Part shown: piece after piece, positions 54,646 to 60,052 of the stretch
How the letters are laid out: every line of letters begins with the position of its first letter
Numbering within the stretch: position 1 is the stretch's first letter
NCBI RefSeq assembly: GCF_947503875.1
Contig: NZ_CANNFH010000007.1
Coordinates: 116,811-180,810, forward strand
From: an uncultured Polaribacter sp.
GTDB lineage: Bacteria; Bacteroidota; Bacteroidia; Flavobacteriales; Flavobacteriaceae
Direction: 5' to 3'
DNA length: 64,000 nt
Translations under genes and position numbers: made by a program
The notes under the pieces: generated by a model
Database searches by the model: none
What the model was told of the DNA's origin: nothing
The model's input: the letters and a program-made list of their open reading frames with translations, nothing else

Positions 54646-54678
54646 ATCCCTCAAAGGGTTCAAAACCCTTTGAGGGAT
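54646..54678. terminator. Perfect 15-bp stem hairpin, possible terminator or REP-like palindrome
   Basis: atccctcaaagggtt-caa-aaccctttgagggat. Confidence 0.6.
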
Positions 54679-54770: not shown

Positions 54771-54982
54771 ATAAAGTGAGTTCCATTTAAAAAAAACACT
54801 ATTTGCTAACAATTACAACTTCTAATATTAAAAATCAATGTCATTTCAACTTTATAGGGAATTCTCAAACTAAGTAAGAAATTTCTCAAGTACACTGAGT
54901 TACGTTTGAAATTGCAGAAATCAACAAATTTTTAGCTACATAGAAAACATAAACTATAATAGTTATATAGAATTCAGGTTAA
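54771..54982. repeat. Second, diverged copy of the MITE-like element (inverse orientation to 49119-49309)
   Basis: Ends ataaagtgagttccat and atagaattcaggttaa; shared internal gtcatttcaact...agaaatttctcaagtacactgagttacgtttgaaat and aactataatagttatat. Confidence 0.6.
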
Positions 54983-54985
54983 ACT

Positions 54986-55018
54986 ACGAATTCTAATTGA
55001 TACTTCACGAATTCTAAT
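54986..55018 (+). promoter_or_regulatory. Direct repeat ACGAATTCTAAT x2 at 21-bp spacing, candidate LytTR-type operator
   Basis: acgaattctaat at 54986-54997 and 55007-55018; candidate TACTTTTA promoter box at 55048-55055; lipoprotein start at 55087. Confidence 0.5.
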
Positions 55019-55086
55019 ACAGGGCAAATTTAACTTTTTTTCCGTTTTACTTTTACAGTGTATTAACACCTAAAAAAGTAAAAATT

Positions 55087-56178
55087 ATGAAAACATTTGT
55101 AAAAACCACCACATTTTTAGTAGCAAGTATTTTAACTACTTCCCTATTTATCAGTTGCAATTCTTCCGAAGAAAAAACACCAAAAACTCCAAAAGTTATT
55201 GTACAAAACACAATACCCATTCCCAAAAAAGTGGCAGCCAAAGTTTATCAAAAACCAATTGTATTTATTGCTGGCTTTGATAAGGGTACTGAAAATTTTT
55301 ATGCAAATGCCAGAACATATTTTAAAGAAAAAGGATTAAAAGTAATTGATGGCCAATATTCTTTAGAAGAAATAATTTTATGGTTAAATAAAAACGGAAA
55401 GTCAAATCCATTTGGCGAAATTCATATTGTAAACAAGAGCAACCCTTACAAAGGCATGAATTTAGAAACTACAATTCATGGTAATAAAATAACTGCAGAA
55501 ACTTTAAGAAGAACAATTACACAAGGAACTTTACCAACACTAGAAAACGTTGTAAATAACAATTCTAAAATAATATTTCATGCCTCTGGATTGATAGAAA
55601 ATTTAGAATTGCTAAGAACATTAAAAGATGCTTTTCATGCCAAAGAAAATCCAAAAGTAGTGGCATCTCCTTATCATACTATTTTTGGCGGCAAATTTTC
55701 TAATCACTATTTAGCAAAACCTTTTTATGTATTTTATCCCACTGCAAATTCACCTGGTATCACAGATTTGTCTAAAGAAATTGCAAAAAAATACCCAGAA
55801 GAAACAGAAATAAATTGGTATGATGCTTTAAATAATAGTGAAGAAAGATATGTTGGAGAAGCATTTACCACACAATTCTCCATACCAATTAAATGGGAAT
55901 TCGATTTTCATAACACAGATAATGAAATGCCAAATTTTAAAATTTCTGAAGAAGTTATGGATTGGATAGAACAAGATGATTTGTTAATGGCAGAGTTGGA
56001 AAAATACAAGATTCCTGTGGAAAAATTTAGATGGAATTGGAAAGCAAAAGGGAGCAAATTAACCATTAGAGGCAGGGCTACAGGACTGTGCGTACTTAAA
56101 CCGTTAATTAAACCTTATGGCGATTTAAAGCATGTAAAGCCAGACACCAACAATAAACGTTTGTATGCTTTAAAATAA
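55087..56178 (+). CDS. Putative lipoprotein of unknown function
   Basis: Lipobox LFISC after hydrophobic segment; no recognised domain. Confidence 0.75.
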   Translation: MKTFVKTTTFLVASILTTSLFISCNSSEEKTPKTPKVIVQNTIPIPKKVAAKVYQKPIVFIAGFDKGTENFYANARTYFKEKGLKVIDGQYSLEEIILWLNKNGKSNPFGEIHIVNKSNPYKGMNLETTIHGNKITAETLRRTITQGTLPTLENVVNNNSKIIFHASGLIENLELLRTLKDAFHAKENPKVVASPYHTIFGGKFSNHYLAKPFYVFYPTANSPGITDLSKEIAKKYPEETEINWYDALNNSEERYVGEAFTTQFSIPIKWEFDFHNTDNEMPNFKISEEVMDWIEQDDLLMAELEKYKIPVEKFRWNWKAKGSKLTIRGRATGLCVLKPLIKPYGDLKHVKPDTNNKRLYALK

Positions 56179-56263: not shown

Positions 56264-58303
56264 ATGAAATTAATTTTAAAAAATTTCTTAGCAGTTGTTG
56301 CAAATTTTCTTTTAAATTTTAAAAGAAGTTTGTCTACAATACTTATGCTGCATTGTTTGCATTCAGCAGCCCAAGAAAATACTTTTAAAAAAATAACTGG
56401 GTCTAAAAACTTTAAGATACATACAATTACACAAGATGACTACAATAATATTTGGCTAGCCACCAATAAAGGCTTAGTTAAGTATGATGGAATTGCATTA
56501 AAAAATTACGATTTTAAAATCGGGAATTCTTCGCAAGAAGTACAAACCTTATTCAGTAAAAATGATTCTTTATTTATTGGAAAAAATAAAAGCATAAACT
56601 TAAAAACAAAAGACACACTTTTAACTTTTGAATCCAAAAGTGTACAGAAAATAGTAGAGCATAACAATCAGTATTATTTTGCTACAAACCAAGGTGTTTG
56701 GCATTTTAGAGGCGATTATTTGCAACCTTTAAAAACCAAATACAATTTAGATTTTTCTTTAATAAATGATATTTTATTTTACGATAACAGCTTTATAGTA
56801 GCGAGTAATAGTGGCCTTTGGAAATTAGATGCGCTTATAAAACCCAAAAAGATTACAAAGCTAAGTTCTGGCGAATTTTCTTCACTTTTAAAAATAGAAA
56901 ACAAATTATTTGTACTTAAAAATAAAAATGAAATTTTAGAAGTAAAAGAAGATCATAAGCTCGACTTAAAATACATTTTAAATGAAATAAATACGATTAA
57001 AAATATTGATGATAAAATTTATGTAATTTCTAAAAACAACGGAATTGATGTTTTAAATGCAACCACTTTTATTTTTGAAAAAAGACTAAATAAGTACAAT
57101 AGTAATTTAAACTCTAATACTATTTACACTGCTTTTCAAGATAGCGAAAAAAATGTATTTATTGCTTCAAATACTGGCTTATACCTTAAAAAAAATACAA
57201 GTATAACAGCATATACAAAGCTACAAATAGCAGATATAAGCATTAATTATACTCCTTTAAATAAAAGTATTCAAACAAATAGCAACAATGCTTTGCAGCT
57301 AAATCGAGATCAAAATAACATTGCTTTTTTATTGCAAAGTATTTCAATTTGCAACCCAAAAAGTATTGTTTATAGGCATCAATTAAACAACGGTGAATTT
57401 TCTCCTTGGAGCACTCAAAATCAAATTAATTTTGCAAATTTAGAAAGTGGCAAGTATACTTTTATCGCGCAAAGCAAATTTATAAACAGTAATAAAATAA
57501 CTTCAGAAAAATTTCATTTTTCAATAGATAAACCCATCTATAAAAAAGTTTGGTTTATTACCCTTTGTATTGTTTTATTCTGTTTAGTTGCCGCTAGTTT
57601 ACTAGAAATTTATATTCGTAAGCTTAAAAAGAAAAATGAACAAAAAGTTACCGCCTTAAAATTAGAAAACCATCTCTTGTCTTTAGAGCAAAAAGCATTG
57701 CAATTACAAATGAATCCGCATTTTATTTTTAATGTGTTAAATGGTATAAAAGCATTAGGTAATACCAACAATAAAAAAGAGTTAAACAGTACTATTTCTC
57801 AGTTTGCAGTGCTTTTAAGAAGTGTTTTAAACAATTCTAATTTAGCAGAAATTAGTTTAAAAGAAGAAATAAATACGCTTAAAAACTATTTGTTTTTAGA
57901 GCAAAAAATGAATACAAATGCCTTTGAATTTAGCATTACAGAAAACTTAAATAGTATAGATGCAGAAGAAATTTTAATTCCGCCAATGTTAATACAGCCT
58001 TTTGTTGAAAACGCTGTAAAACATGGAATTTCTAAAATCCAAAAAAAGGGAGAAATCGAAATTAGTTTTAAAGTAAATCATCGTTTTTTAGAATGTTGCA
58101 TTACAGATAACGGAATTGGTATTTATGAATCTCAAAAAAACAAATCACATAAAAGCCATAATTCCTTGGCTTTAAAAATAACTAAAGAAAGAATTAAAAA
58201 CCTGAATAAGTACGCTAATTTTACAATTAAAGAATTGAAAAACAAAACTGAAGTTAAAGGCACTTCTATTCAGTTTAAAATACCTTTAAAAACAGATTTT
58301 TAA
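56264..58303 (+). CDS. LytS/YehU-type sensor histidine kinase with ligand-binding propeller and Y_Y_Y-like region
   Basis: QDDYNNIWLATNKGLVKYDG repeats, TM, LQMNPHFIFNVLNGIKALGN, PPMLIQPFVENAVKHGI. Confidence 0.9.
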   Translation: MKLILKNFLAVVANFLLNFKRSLSTILMLHCLHSAAQENTFKKITGSKNFKIHTITQDDYNNIWLATNKGLVKYDGIALKNYDFKIGNSSQEVQTLFSKNDSLFIGKNKSINLKTKDTLLTFESKSVQKIVEHNNQYYFATNQGVWHFRGDYLQPLKTKYNLDFSLINDILFYDNSFIVASNSGLWKLDALIKPKKITKLSSGEFSSLLKIENKLFVLKNKNEILEVKEDHKLDLKYILNEINTIKNIDDKIYVISKNNGIDVLNATTFIFEKRLNKYNSNLNSNTIYTAFQDSEKNVFIASNTGLYLKKNTSITAYTKLQIADISINYTPLNKSIQTNSNNALQLNRDQNNIAFLLQSISICNPKSIVYRHQLNNGEFSPWSTQNQINFANLESGKYTFIAQSKFINSNKITSEKFHFSIDKPIYKKVWFITLCIVLFCLVAASLLEIYIRKLKKKNEQKVTALKLENHLLSLEQKALQLQMNPHFIFNVLNGIKALGNTNNKKELNSTISQFAVLLRSVLNNSNLAEISLKEEINTLKNYLFLEQKMNTNAFEFSITENLNSIDAEEILIPPMLIQPFVENAVKHGISKIQKKGEIEISFKVNHRFLECCITDNGIGIYESQKNKSHKSHNSLALKITKERIKNLNKYANFTIKELKNKTEVKGTSIQFKIPLKTDF

Positions 58304-58308
58304 ACAAA

Positions 58309-59150
58309 ATGAAAAAAAGAAAGTTTATAAAGAAGTCGCTTTTAAGTGCCACAGGACTTTTCTTAGCAACCGGAATTTACTCTTGGCAAGTAGAACCTTT
58401 TTGGTTAGAGTTTGTAAAAAAAATATGCCTATTAAGATTTTACCTGAGCATCTTGTTGGTAAAACACTCATGCAAATTAGCGACATACATGTGGGAAACA
58501 GGTTTAATTATCAATTTATAATTGATTCTTTTAAAAAAGCAAAGCTGTATAAACCAGGTTTTGTAATGTATACAGGAGATTATGTTTCTTACGAAGATGA
58601 GCAACAATTTAAGCAATTACAAGAGGTAATGCAAAAGCCTGTTTTAGGTAATTTAGGTACTTTTGGCATTCTTGGAAATCATGATTATGGGATAAATTGG
58701 TACCAACAAGAAGTTGCCGATCAGATTAATACCATTTTAGAAGATTCTGGAGTTACAATGCTCAACAATCAACAAAAAGAAAATAGTGGTTTATATATTA
58801 CCGGTTTAGACGATTATTGGGGATTAAATTTTAACCCTAAAAAAGTGCTTTCAGAAATGAATCATAATAAAGCAAACTTAATACTATGTGATAATCCAGA
58901 TTTTTGTGATTTAGATGTTTGGGGCAAATATTCTGGTTGGATTTTATCTGGTCACACAAATGGAGGCCAAGTAAAACCACCTTTTTTAAAACCACCTGTA
59001 TTGCCTGTAAAAAACAAGCGATATACTGCTGGAGAAATTCCATTAAAAAAAGGCCGTACACTTTATATAAACAGCGCTTTAGGTAACTCTCGTCAAATTC
59101 GTTTTAATGTAAGACCAGAAATTACTTTATTTACACTAAAAAAAGCATAA
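58309..59150 (+). pseudogene. Metallophosphoesterase split by a frameshift at an A8 tract (58309-58521 frame carries the N-terminus; 58383-59150 frame carries the catalytic domain)
   Basis: MKKRKFIKKSLLSATGLFLATGIYSWQVEPFWLEFVKK in one frame, NMPIKILPEHLVGKTLMQISDIHVGNRF...YTGDYV...GILGNHDYG...LSGHTNGGQ in the next. Confidence 0.75.
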
Positions 59151-59153
59151 AAA

Positions 59154-59903
59154 ATGAACAAAACAACAGCCATTTTAGTAGAAGATAATCCTTTAGCATT
59201 AGAAATGCTAGAAAATGATATAAGCACTAATCACAAAGATTTAACGCTGGTTGGCAAAGCAAAATCTGTTGTTGAAGCCGCAAAATTACTAAGAACAATA
59301 ACACCTGACATTTTATTTTTAGATATAATGTTGGGAGACGGAACAGGATTTGATATTTTAGAAATTTTCCCCGATTTAACTTCTAAAATTATTTTTGTTA
59401 CAGCAAGCGATGCTTATGCTATTAAAGCTTTTAAGTTTGCAGCAATAGATTATATTTTAAAACCATATACAGACAAAGATTTGGCAAATGCAATTGCCAA
59501 AGCATTTTCTCAAATTCAACCAAAAAACGAACAATTAAGTGTTTTAAAGCAAGCGATTACTGCTCCAAATTCTAGTTTAGAAAAAATATCTTTACATACC
59601 ACAGAAAAAATAATTGTGGCTAATATTATCGATATCATTCGCTGTAAATCTGATAATAATTATACTACTTTCTTTTTTAAAGATAGCTCTAAAATACTAG
59701 TTTCTAAAACCTTAAAGTTTTACGCAGATTTATTAAAAGAAGTTGGCTTTATTAGAGTGCATCAAAGTCATTTAATCAACACAAAGTATATTAAAGAATT
59801 TATAAAATCTGATGGTGGTTATTTAATGCTTACCGATAATTCTAATGTGCCTGTTTCAGTAAGAAAAAGAACAGAAGTTTTAGAGGTTTTGAATTCTTTT
59901 TGA
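59154..59903 (+). CDS. LytTR-family response regulator
   Basis: REC domain (PDILFLDIMLGDGTGFDIL) plus LytTR domain (IIRCKSDNNYTTFFF, FIRVHQSHLINTKYIKEF). Confidence 0.94.
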   Translation: MNKTTAILVEDNPLALEMLENDISTNHKDLTLVGKAKSVVEAAKLLRTITPDILFLDIMLGDGTGFDILEIFPDLTSKIIFVTASDAYAIKAFKFAAIDYILKPYTDKDLANAIAKAFSQIQPKNEQLSVLKQAITAPNSSLEKISLHTTEKIIVANIIDIIRCKSDNNYTTFFFKDSSKILVSKTLKFYADLLKEVGFIRVHQSHLINTKYIKEFIKSDGGYLMLTDNSNVPVSVRKRTEVLEVLNSF

Positions 59904-60052
59904 TGCTAATTTGTGGGAACTACGAATTCATTGGTTTTCATTTTGCACACATTATAAATTTGATAATAAATAACAAGGTGTGAGCTACAGTATGGGACTT
60001 CTCACTACATTCGAAGTGACAATTTGAGTTTTAATCCAAATTTCGGATACAA

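Follow-up and report, generated by a model that had tools for sequence, protein, structure and literature searches.

A 21-bp tandem repeat as the probable operator of a kinase/LytTR two-component system in Polaribacter and of envelope genes in its relatives

Introduction

Regulators of the LytTR type bind sites composed of two repeats of 9–11 nt separated by a gap of 11–13 nt, for which the published description offers no common consensus (PMC4847170). In S. mutans, direct repeats upstream of the promoters of LytTR operons mediate positive autoregulation (PMC6193735). As that source describes HdrRM/BrsRM and the other LRS of this species, the short direct repeats (9-bp repeats with a 12-bp spacer) are mostly 21 bp apart start to start and lie just upstream of the promoter of the LytTR operon, and further targets share them; the spacing and the position are those of the locus reported here (PMC6193735). 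The two differ in their partners and in their half-site: an LRS combines a regulator with a membrane inhibitor and uses a ACCNCTTAN-like half-site, whereas our locus combines a response regulator with a histidine kinase and a lipoprotein, and its half-site is ACGAATTCTAAT (PMC6193735). An LRS is defined by a LytTR regulator with an inhibitory membrane protein that replaces the kinase; our system is not an LRS, because its operon contains genes for a kinase and for a regulator with a receiver domain. In the LRS-like operons of Bacteroides, the same source gives TCCGGTATTCA-11bp-ACCGGAAATCA upstream of a TATCTTTG box (PMC6193735). These operons share with ours the phylum-type promoter and the upstream position of the repeats, but their half-site is different, their spacing is 22 bp rather than 21 bp and, unlike here, their LytTR protein is membrane-bound and has an NfeD/DUF2154 partner (PMC6193735). 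Neither the LytTR half-sites given there for S. mutans nor those for Bacteroides look like the half-site of our locus (PMC6193735).

E. coli YpdA/YpdB is, like our system, a histidine-kinase/LytTR two-component pair, and the yhjX promoter is described as having tandem direct repeats, GGCATTTCAT, that are bound in sequence (PMC4847170). The half-site and the target are others in that case, whereas here the site heads its own operon and, in relatives, envelope genes (PMC4847170). CreBC/CreD, in Stenotrophomonas for example, also links a two-component system to creD, which encodes an inner-membrane protein connected with envelope integrity (PMC4689548); here the regulator is instead of the LytTR type, and creD, which this organism has lost at its locus, is one gene among several that are predicted as targets. 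In the open-access text searched, outside which most subscription papers lie, we found no title or abstract that reports a LytTR operator in Flavobacteriaceae or the regulon described below. The operator architecture is already known for LytTR regulators; the half-site and the regulon appear to be undescribed in the open-access text searched. Here we report that the ACGAATTCTAAT repeats very probably serve the LytTR regulator encoded at 59154 as its operator, with predicted kinase-driven binding, promoter activation, positive autoregulation and, in relatives, an envelope regulon.

Results

In the window, that is the whole 64,000-nucleotide stretch of Polaribacter DNA that was analysed, the original prediction had singled out two identical 12-mers 21 bp apart, about 69 bp upstream of a lipoprotein gene at 55087. 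Both 12-mers, which are 100% identical, were found on the forward strand: half-site 1, ACGAATTCTAAT, at 54986–54997 is kept in congeneric relatives, and half-site 2, again ACGAATTCTAAT, at 55007–55018 follows exactly 21 bp downstream (start to start), its end 69 bp from the ATG at 55087. The whole genome (3,092,121 bp) contains ACGAATTCTAAT only twice, at 54986 and 55007, and the genome scan for the half-site pair that had been proposed as a check gave a single ACGAATTC-N8..18-ACGAATTC occurrence, at the operator. Described as a pair of 10-nt cores CGAATTCTAA with an 11-bp gap, the element falls within the range of LytTR operators (repeats of 9–11 nt, gap of 11–13 nt). A lone ACGAATTC is unremarkable, with 3 in the window against 1.12 expected; the pair stands above chance because it is conserved, at the heads of the congeneric operons and in the 21-bp spacing that dominates in 99 genomes. 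We rejected the single related site near 59919 as part of the system: this third copy, located at 59922, is at chance frequency and carries no weight, since about 1.1 ACGAATTC are expected in the window, and no ACGAATTC is retained just behind the regulator gene in relatives.

All genes of the operon lie on the forward strand. The first (55087–56178) encodes the lipoprotein, which matches no family in Pfam or NCBIfam; its AlphaFold model (pLDDT 77) predicts an alpha/beta domain, comparison of this fold with the PDB gave nothing significant and weak flavodoxin-like alpha/beta matches only, and H113 and H165 are invariant in the lipoprotein family. The second gene (56264–58303) encodes a sensor histidine kinase with a Reg_prop (beta-propeller) match, His_kinase (PF06580) and HATPase_c. 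The third, a metallophosphoesterase gene (58309–59150), has its frame broken near 58417–58425 relative to its orthologs; it goes out of frame in an A-run through which seven orthologs read, so either the gene is broken or the sequence contains an error. The fourth (59154–59903) bears out the LytTR regulator claimed at 59154: it encodes a response regulator with Response_reg and LytTR domains, that is a receiver and a DNA-binding domain, and is the proposed ligand of the operator. The kinase matches (His_kinase, HATPase_c) and the regulator matches (Response_reg, LytTR) all score above gathering cut-offs; the PF06580-type kinase and the receiver-LytTR regulator form a LytS/LytTR two-component system.

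At the protein level, 27 of 59 genomes, all of one genus, have the lipoprotein, and we compared the operon head in 25 larger regions from 25 genomes containing congeneric orthologs. Absence of the repeat from relatives with the same gene order would have spoken against the original prediction, which withstood this check. The exact pair CGAATTC-N14-CGAATTC (21 bp) lies upstream of the operon in 24 of these 25 regions, and the remaining one (L047) departs from it by a single base in the second half-site; L046 and L058 have the exact pair, but the A preceding the second core is changed. The half-sites are constant in congeners, and the nine bases between them are variable. The site is usually about 100 bp from the lipoprotein gene; this distance is about 310–340 bp in L051–L054, L056 and L057, where a small gene lies between, and about 0.9–2.3 kb in L059, L061, L063 and L065 (the first ORF of L063 carries a VIT domain according to Pfam). 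Since extra genes intervene yet the site stays in front of them, it tracks the head of the operon and not the lipoprotein gene.

Scanning 99 congeneric genomes for CGAATTC-N4..34-CGAATTC (spacings of 11–41 bp), we found that a spacing of exactly 21 bp dominates all others, with 79 pairs in 58 genomes, a count that includes a few apparently unrelated pairs without the CTAA extension, such as L073. The reversed control was almost nil, and a negative control with the longer core only, CGAATTCTAA-N12-CGAATTCTAA (22 bp), gave no occurrence in the 99 genomes. The LytTR regulator has an ortholog (E <= 1e-60) in 65 of the 99. Of these 65 genomes, 57 have the exact 21-bp pair, as against 1 of the 34 without the regulator (Fisher p ~1e-17, uncorrected for phylogeny). 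Among the eight regulator-bearing genomes without the exact pair, G034, G060, G061 and G063 carry a version that differs by one mismatch; the other four are G018, G064, G067 and G109. G062, the one genome with the pair and no regulator, has a completeness of 73%, and the contig in question breaks off soon after the lipoprotein gene (L096). The site is thus genetically linked to a LytTR regulator and co-occurs with it, as a LytTR operator should.

More widely, the site is present with at most one mismatch in 21 of 400 genomes of the family (16 genera, in a sample that spans 237), and an exact scan of GTDB species genomes gave at least 116 stretches. Among the matches listed (80 of at least 116) are Polaribacter, Tenacibaculum, Aquimarina, Lutibacter, Flavobacterium, Aequorivita and Chryseobacterium, as well as MAGs of Saprospiraceae and Chitinophagaceae and one gammaproteobacterium (Litorilituus). 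In Aquimarina, Flavobacterium, Chryseobacterium and a Saprospiraceae MAG, the site lies in front of kinase/LytTR operons of other kinds: in Aquimarina L172 it is followed by a Reg_prop kinase and a LytTR regulator, and in Chryseobacterium L216 by a TPR kinase and a LytTR regulator 42% identical to ours, in both cases without the lipoprotein. An HMM of the LytTR domain built from the regulators matched in 25 of the 80 fetched 8-kb loci, many of which end before a regulator would be reached; some of the other LytTR-negative loci carry no identified LytTR link. In eight Aquimarina loci (L169, L181, L183, L194, L195, L199, L232 and L234) the same tandem operator, with its promoter box, lies ahead of a short ORF that is conserved and, to judge from the alignment, would encode a small exported peptide; an Rfam search of three Aquimarina loci found nothing. 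Three consecutive half-sites with a 21-bp period are found in L180 and L190 (contig-oriented positions ~20–125) and in L207 (~1189–1240), an arrangement that suggests seats for more than two regulator molecules.

These distributions bear on the possibility that the tandem site is regulatory but bound by another factor, a second LytTR paralog or a protein of a different family, that controls the operon from outside. The genome has other response-regulator-like candidates, 21 at first look for a LytTR query, and elsewhere the site precedes kinase/LytTR operons whose regulator is about 42% identical (L202, L216 and L231), so the same half-site sequence may be recognised by several LytTR proteins. 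Against this, the pair hardly persists where the orthologous regulator is missing, the single genome of 34 that keeps it being fragmented, and regulator-free genomes have 3-mismatch matches only, among the matches listed. We regard binding by another factor as improbable, and the regulator encoded at 59154 as the preferred ligand.

Downstream of the repeats, the promoter box proposed at 55048–55055 is present as TACTTTTA on the forward strand, a -7 box of the Bacteroidota type without a conserved -33 box, and its start at 55048 is exactly 40 bp from the C of half-site 2. This geometry is fixed well beyond our locus: of 138 distinct sites, 126 have a TAnnTTT box whose start lies 39–41 bp beyond the C of half-site 2. 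The 138 sites were chosen by an exact CGAATTC pair and a loose extension filter; the invariance of the CGAATTC bases is therefore by construction, because the set was selected on them, while the flanking A and the TAnnTTT box lie outside the selection criterion. No TTTG is conserved at the -33 position in the 138 sites. The operator thus lies immediately upstream of the promoter, as in known LytTR operons. A -7 box with an activator site replacing the -33 box would be the form expected of an activator-dependent promoter in this phylum. A transcription start about 12 bp after the start of the box would place the half-site centres near -69 and -48; the repeats of AgrA are placed near -60 in the published account (PMC4227749).

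The same geometry weighs on whether the regulator might instead repress, the repeats then being an operator for negative autoregulation. Geometry alone leaves the sign unproven, and AgrA is reported to repress one promoter as well, by binding downstream (PMC4227749). Our site, in contrast, is upstream of the promoter core, neither over nor downstream of it, TTTG is not conserved at -33, and comparable LytTR sites upstream of promoters are described as activating (PMC6193735). Repression is thus very unlikely, and activation remains our reading of the site.

A degenerate interspersed repeat lies directly upstream, at 54772–54984. It is MITE-like, with imperfect terminal inverted repeats and about 8 genome copies in a DNA search, and it ends 2–3 bp before the operator; one copy (L005) has 36-nt inverted arms, 72% complementary, and measures about 212 bp end to end. 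Further upstream, downstream of a uvrA-like gene, a perfect 15-bp inverted repeat with a 3-bp loop (54646–54678) is terminator-like. That the 12-mers are a chance artefact, part of this mobile-element-like repeat ending at ~54983, is hardly credible despite its copies and its proximity, and the interspersed repeat is refuted as their source: the other aligned copies lack the 12-mers, the operator has unrelated upstream flanks in relatives, and the 12-mer is unique to the operator in the genome.

The prediction of an operator at its own operon stood, with the correction that the site is not private to this operon: related genomes also carry it in front of a small number of envelope genes. With 0–3 mismatches, and usually followed by a TAnnTTT box at an unchanged distance, the site recurs there before an alpha-2-macroglobulin gene, PSP1-gldH-PBP1A, creD and guaA. 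We examined 55 sites away from the lipoprotein operon (15 + 40, the 40 with up to 3 mismatches), and by their first downstream ORFs 50 of them fall into five gene classes: 25 precede alpha-2-macroglobulin-like (A2M) lipoprotein genes, which are of a first type at 20 sites and of a related second type at the other 5, while 18 precede PSP1-gldH-PBP1A, 5 creD and 2 guaA. The sites outside these classes are L073, L132, L137, L150 and L152. Classes were assigned by recognisable N-terminal sequence, with Pfam run on one representative each, which confirmed creD, A2M (first type), PSP1, GldH, PBP1A and guaA; one representative of the gene after guaA was also run against Pfam. In L104, the gene behind A2M resembles, by eye, a PbpC-type penicillin-binding protein. 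CreD has been studied in Stenotrophomonas as an inner-membrane protein under CreBC (PMC4689548). Judged from sequence, these targets suggest a role in maintaining peptidoglycan and envelope, and an operator shared by A2M, PSP1-gldH-PBP1A and creD is what an envelope-stress regulon would be expected to display in these relatives.

In this genome, the autoregulatory site is the only one found intact. At the creD locus (L117, G000:C7 ~43,300), a 3-mismatch site and a promoter box are followed by the first creD codons and then by divergent sequence, indicating that creD has been lost there and that a decayed operator/promoter remnant is left. The PSP1 gene is present (85% identical), and no recognisable site lies upstream of it, the best match having 8 mismatches. 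A 300-aa A2M query, run without a positive control, found nothing in this genome. Another 3-mismatch match, at C6 (L116), was rejected, as it lies inside a coding sequence that is Fic-family-like by eye. Because the further targets have been lost, have decayed or did not turn up here, the regulon is inferred from relatives.

Discussion

Known spacing, fixed promoter geometry, position at the head of the operon and co-occurrence with the regulator support the LytTR operator of the original prediction, as far as sequence can speak for it. Site, spacing, promoter geometry, conservation, LytTR linkage and shared target genes are features read from the genomes; from these we infer how binding, activation, phosphorylation, kinase topology and stimulus may fit together. 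The kinase encoded at 56264, which shows a beta-propeller match and presumably has a sensing part in the periplasm, would phosphorylate the regulator encoded at 59154. Two regulator molecules would then occupy one half-site each, both on one face of the helix and immediately upstream of the promoter, and the bound regulator would recruit RNA polymerase to a promoter that has the -7 box TACTTTTA and no conserved -33 box. Since the site heads the operon of lipoprotein, kinase, phosphoesterase and regulator, this activation would amount to positive autoregulation. In relatives, activation by the same regulator would extend to the alpha-2-macroglobulin lipoprotein, PSP1-gldH-PBP1A and creD and, because these targets are envelope genes, the most likely stimulus of the system is stress on the envelope or the peptidoglycan.

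On balance, we favour, with appreciably less confidence than the operator itself, a so far undescribed envelope-homeostasis regulon that spans the Flavobacteriaceae, in which one kinase/LytTR pair, positively autoregulated via ACGAATTCTAAT direct repeats, would jointly control the A2M lipoprotein, PSP1-GldH-PBP1A, CreD and the uncharacterised lipoprotein of the operon, a counterpart to the Cre/Cpx-type responses of proteobacteria. A specialist would expect a LytTR operator of such geometry, but neither so sharp a half-site nor a coherent, family-wide envelope regulon. The high-information 31-bp site, the fixed promoter geometry and the coherent targets predict which genes would respond together, which regulator is key and which lipoprotein family to study. 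The operator may thus offer a testable entry to the sensing of envelope damage in marine bacteria.
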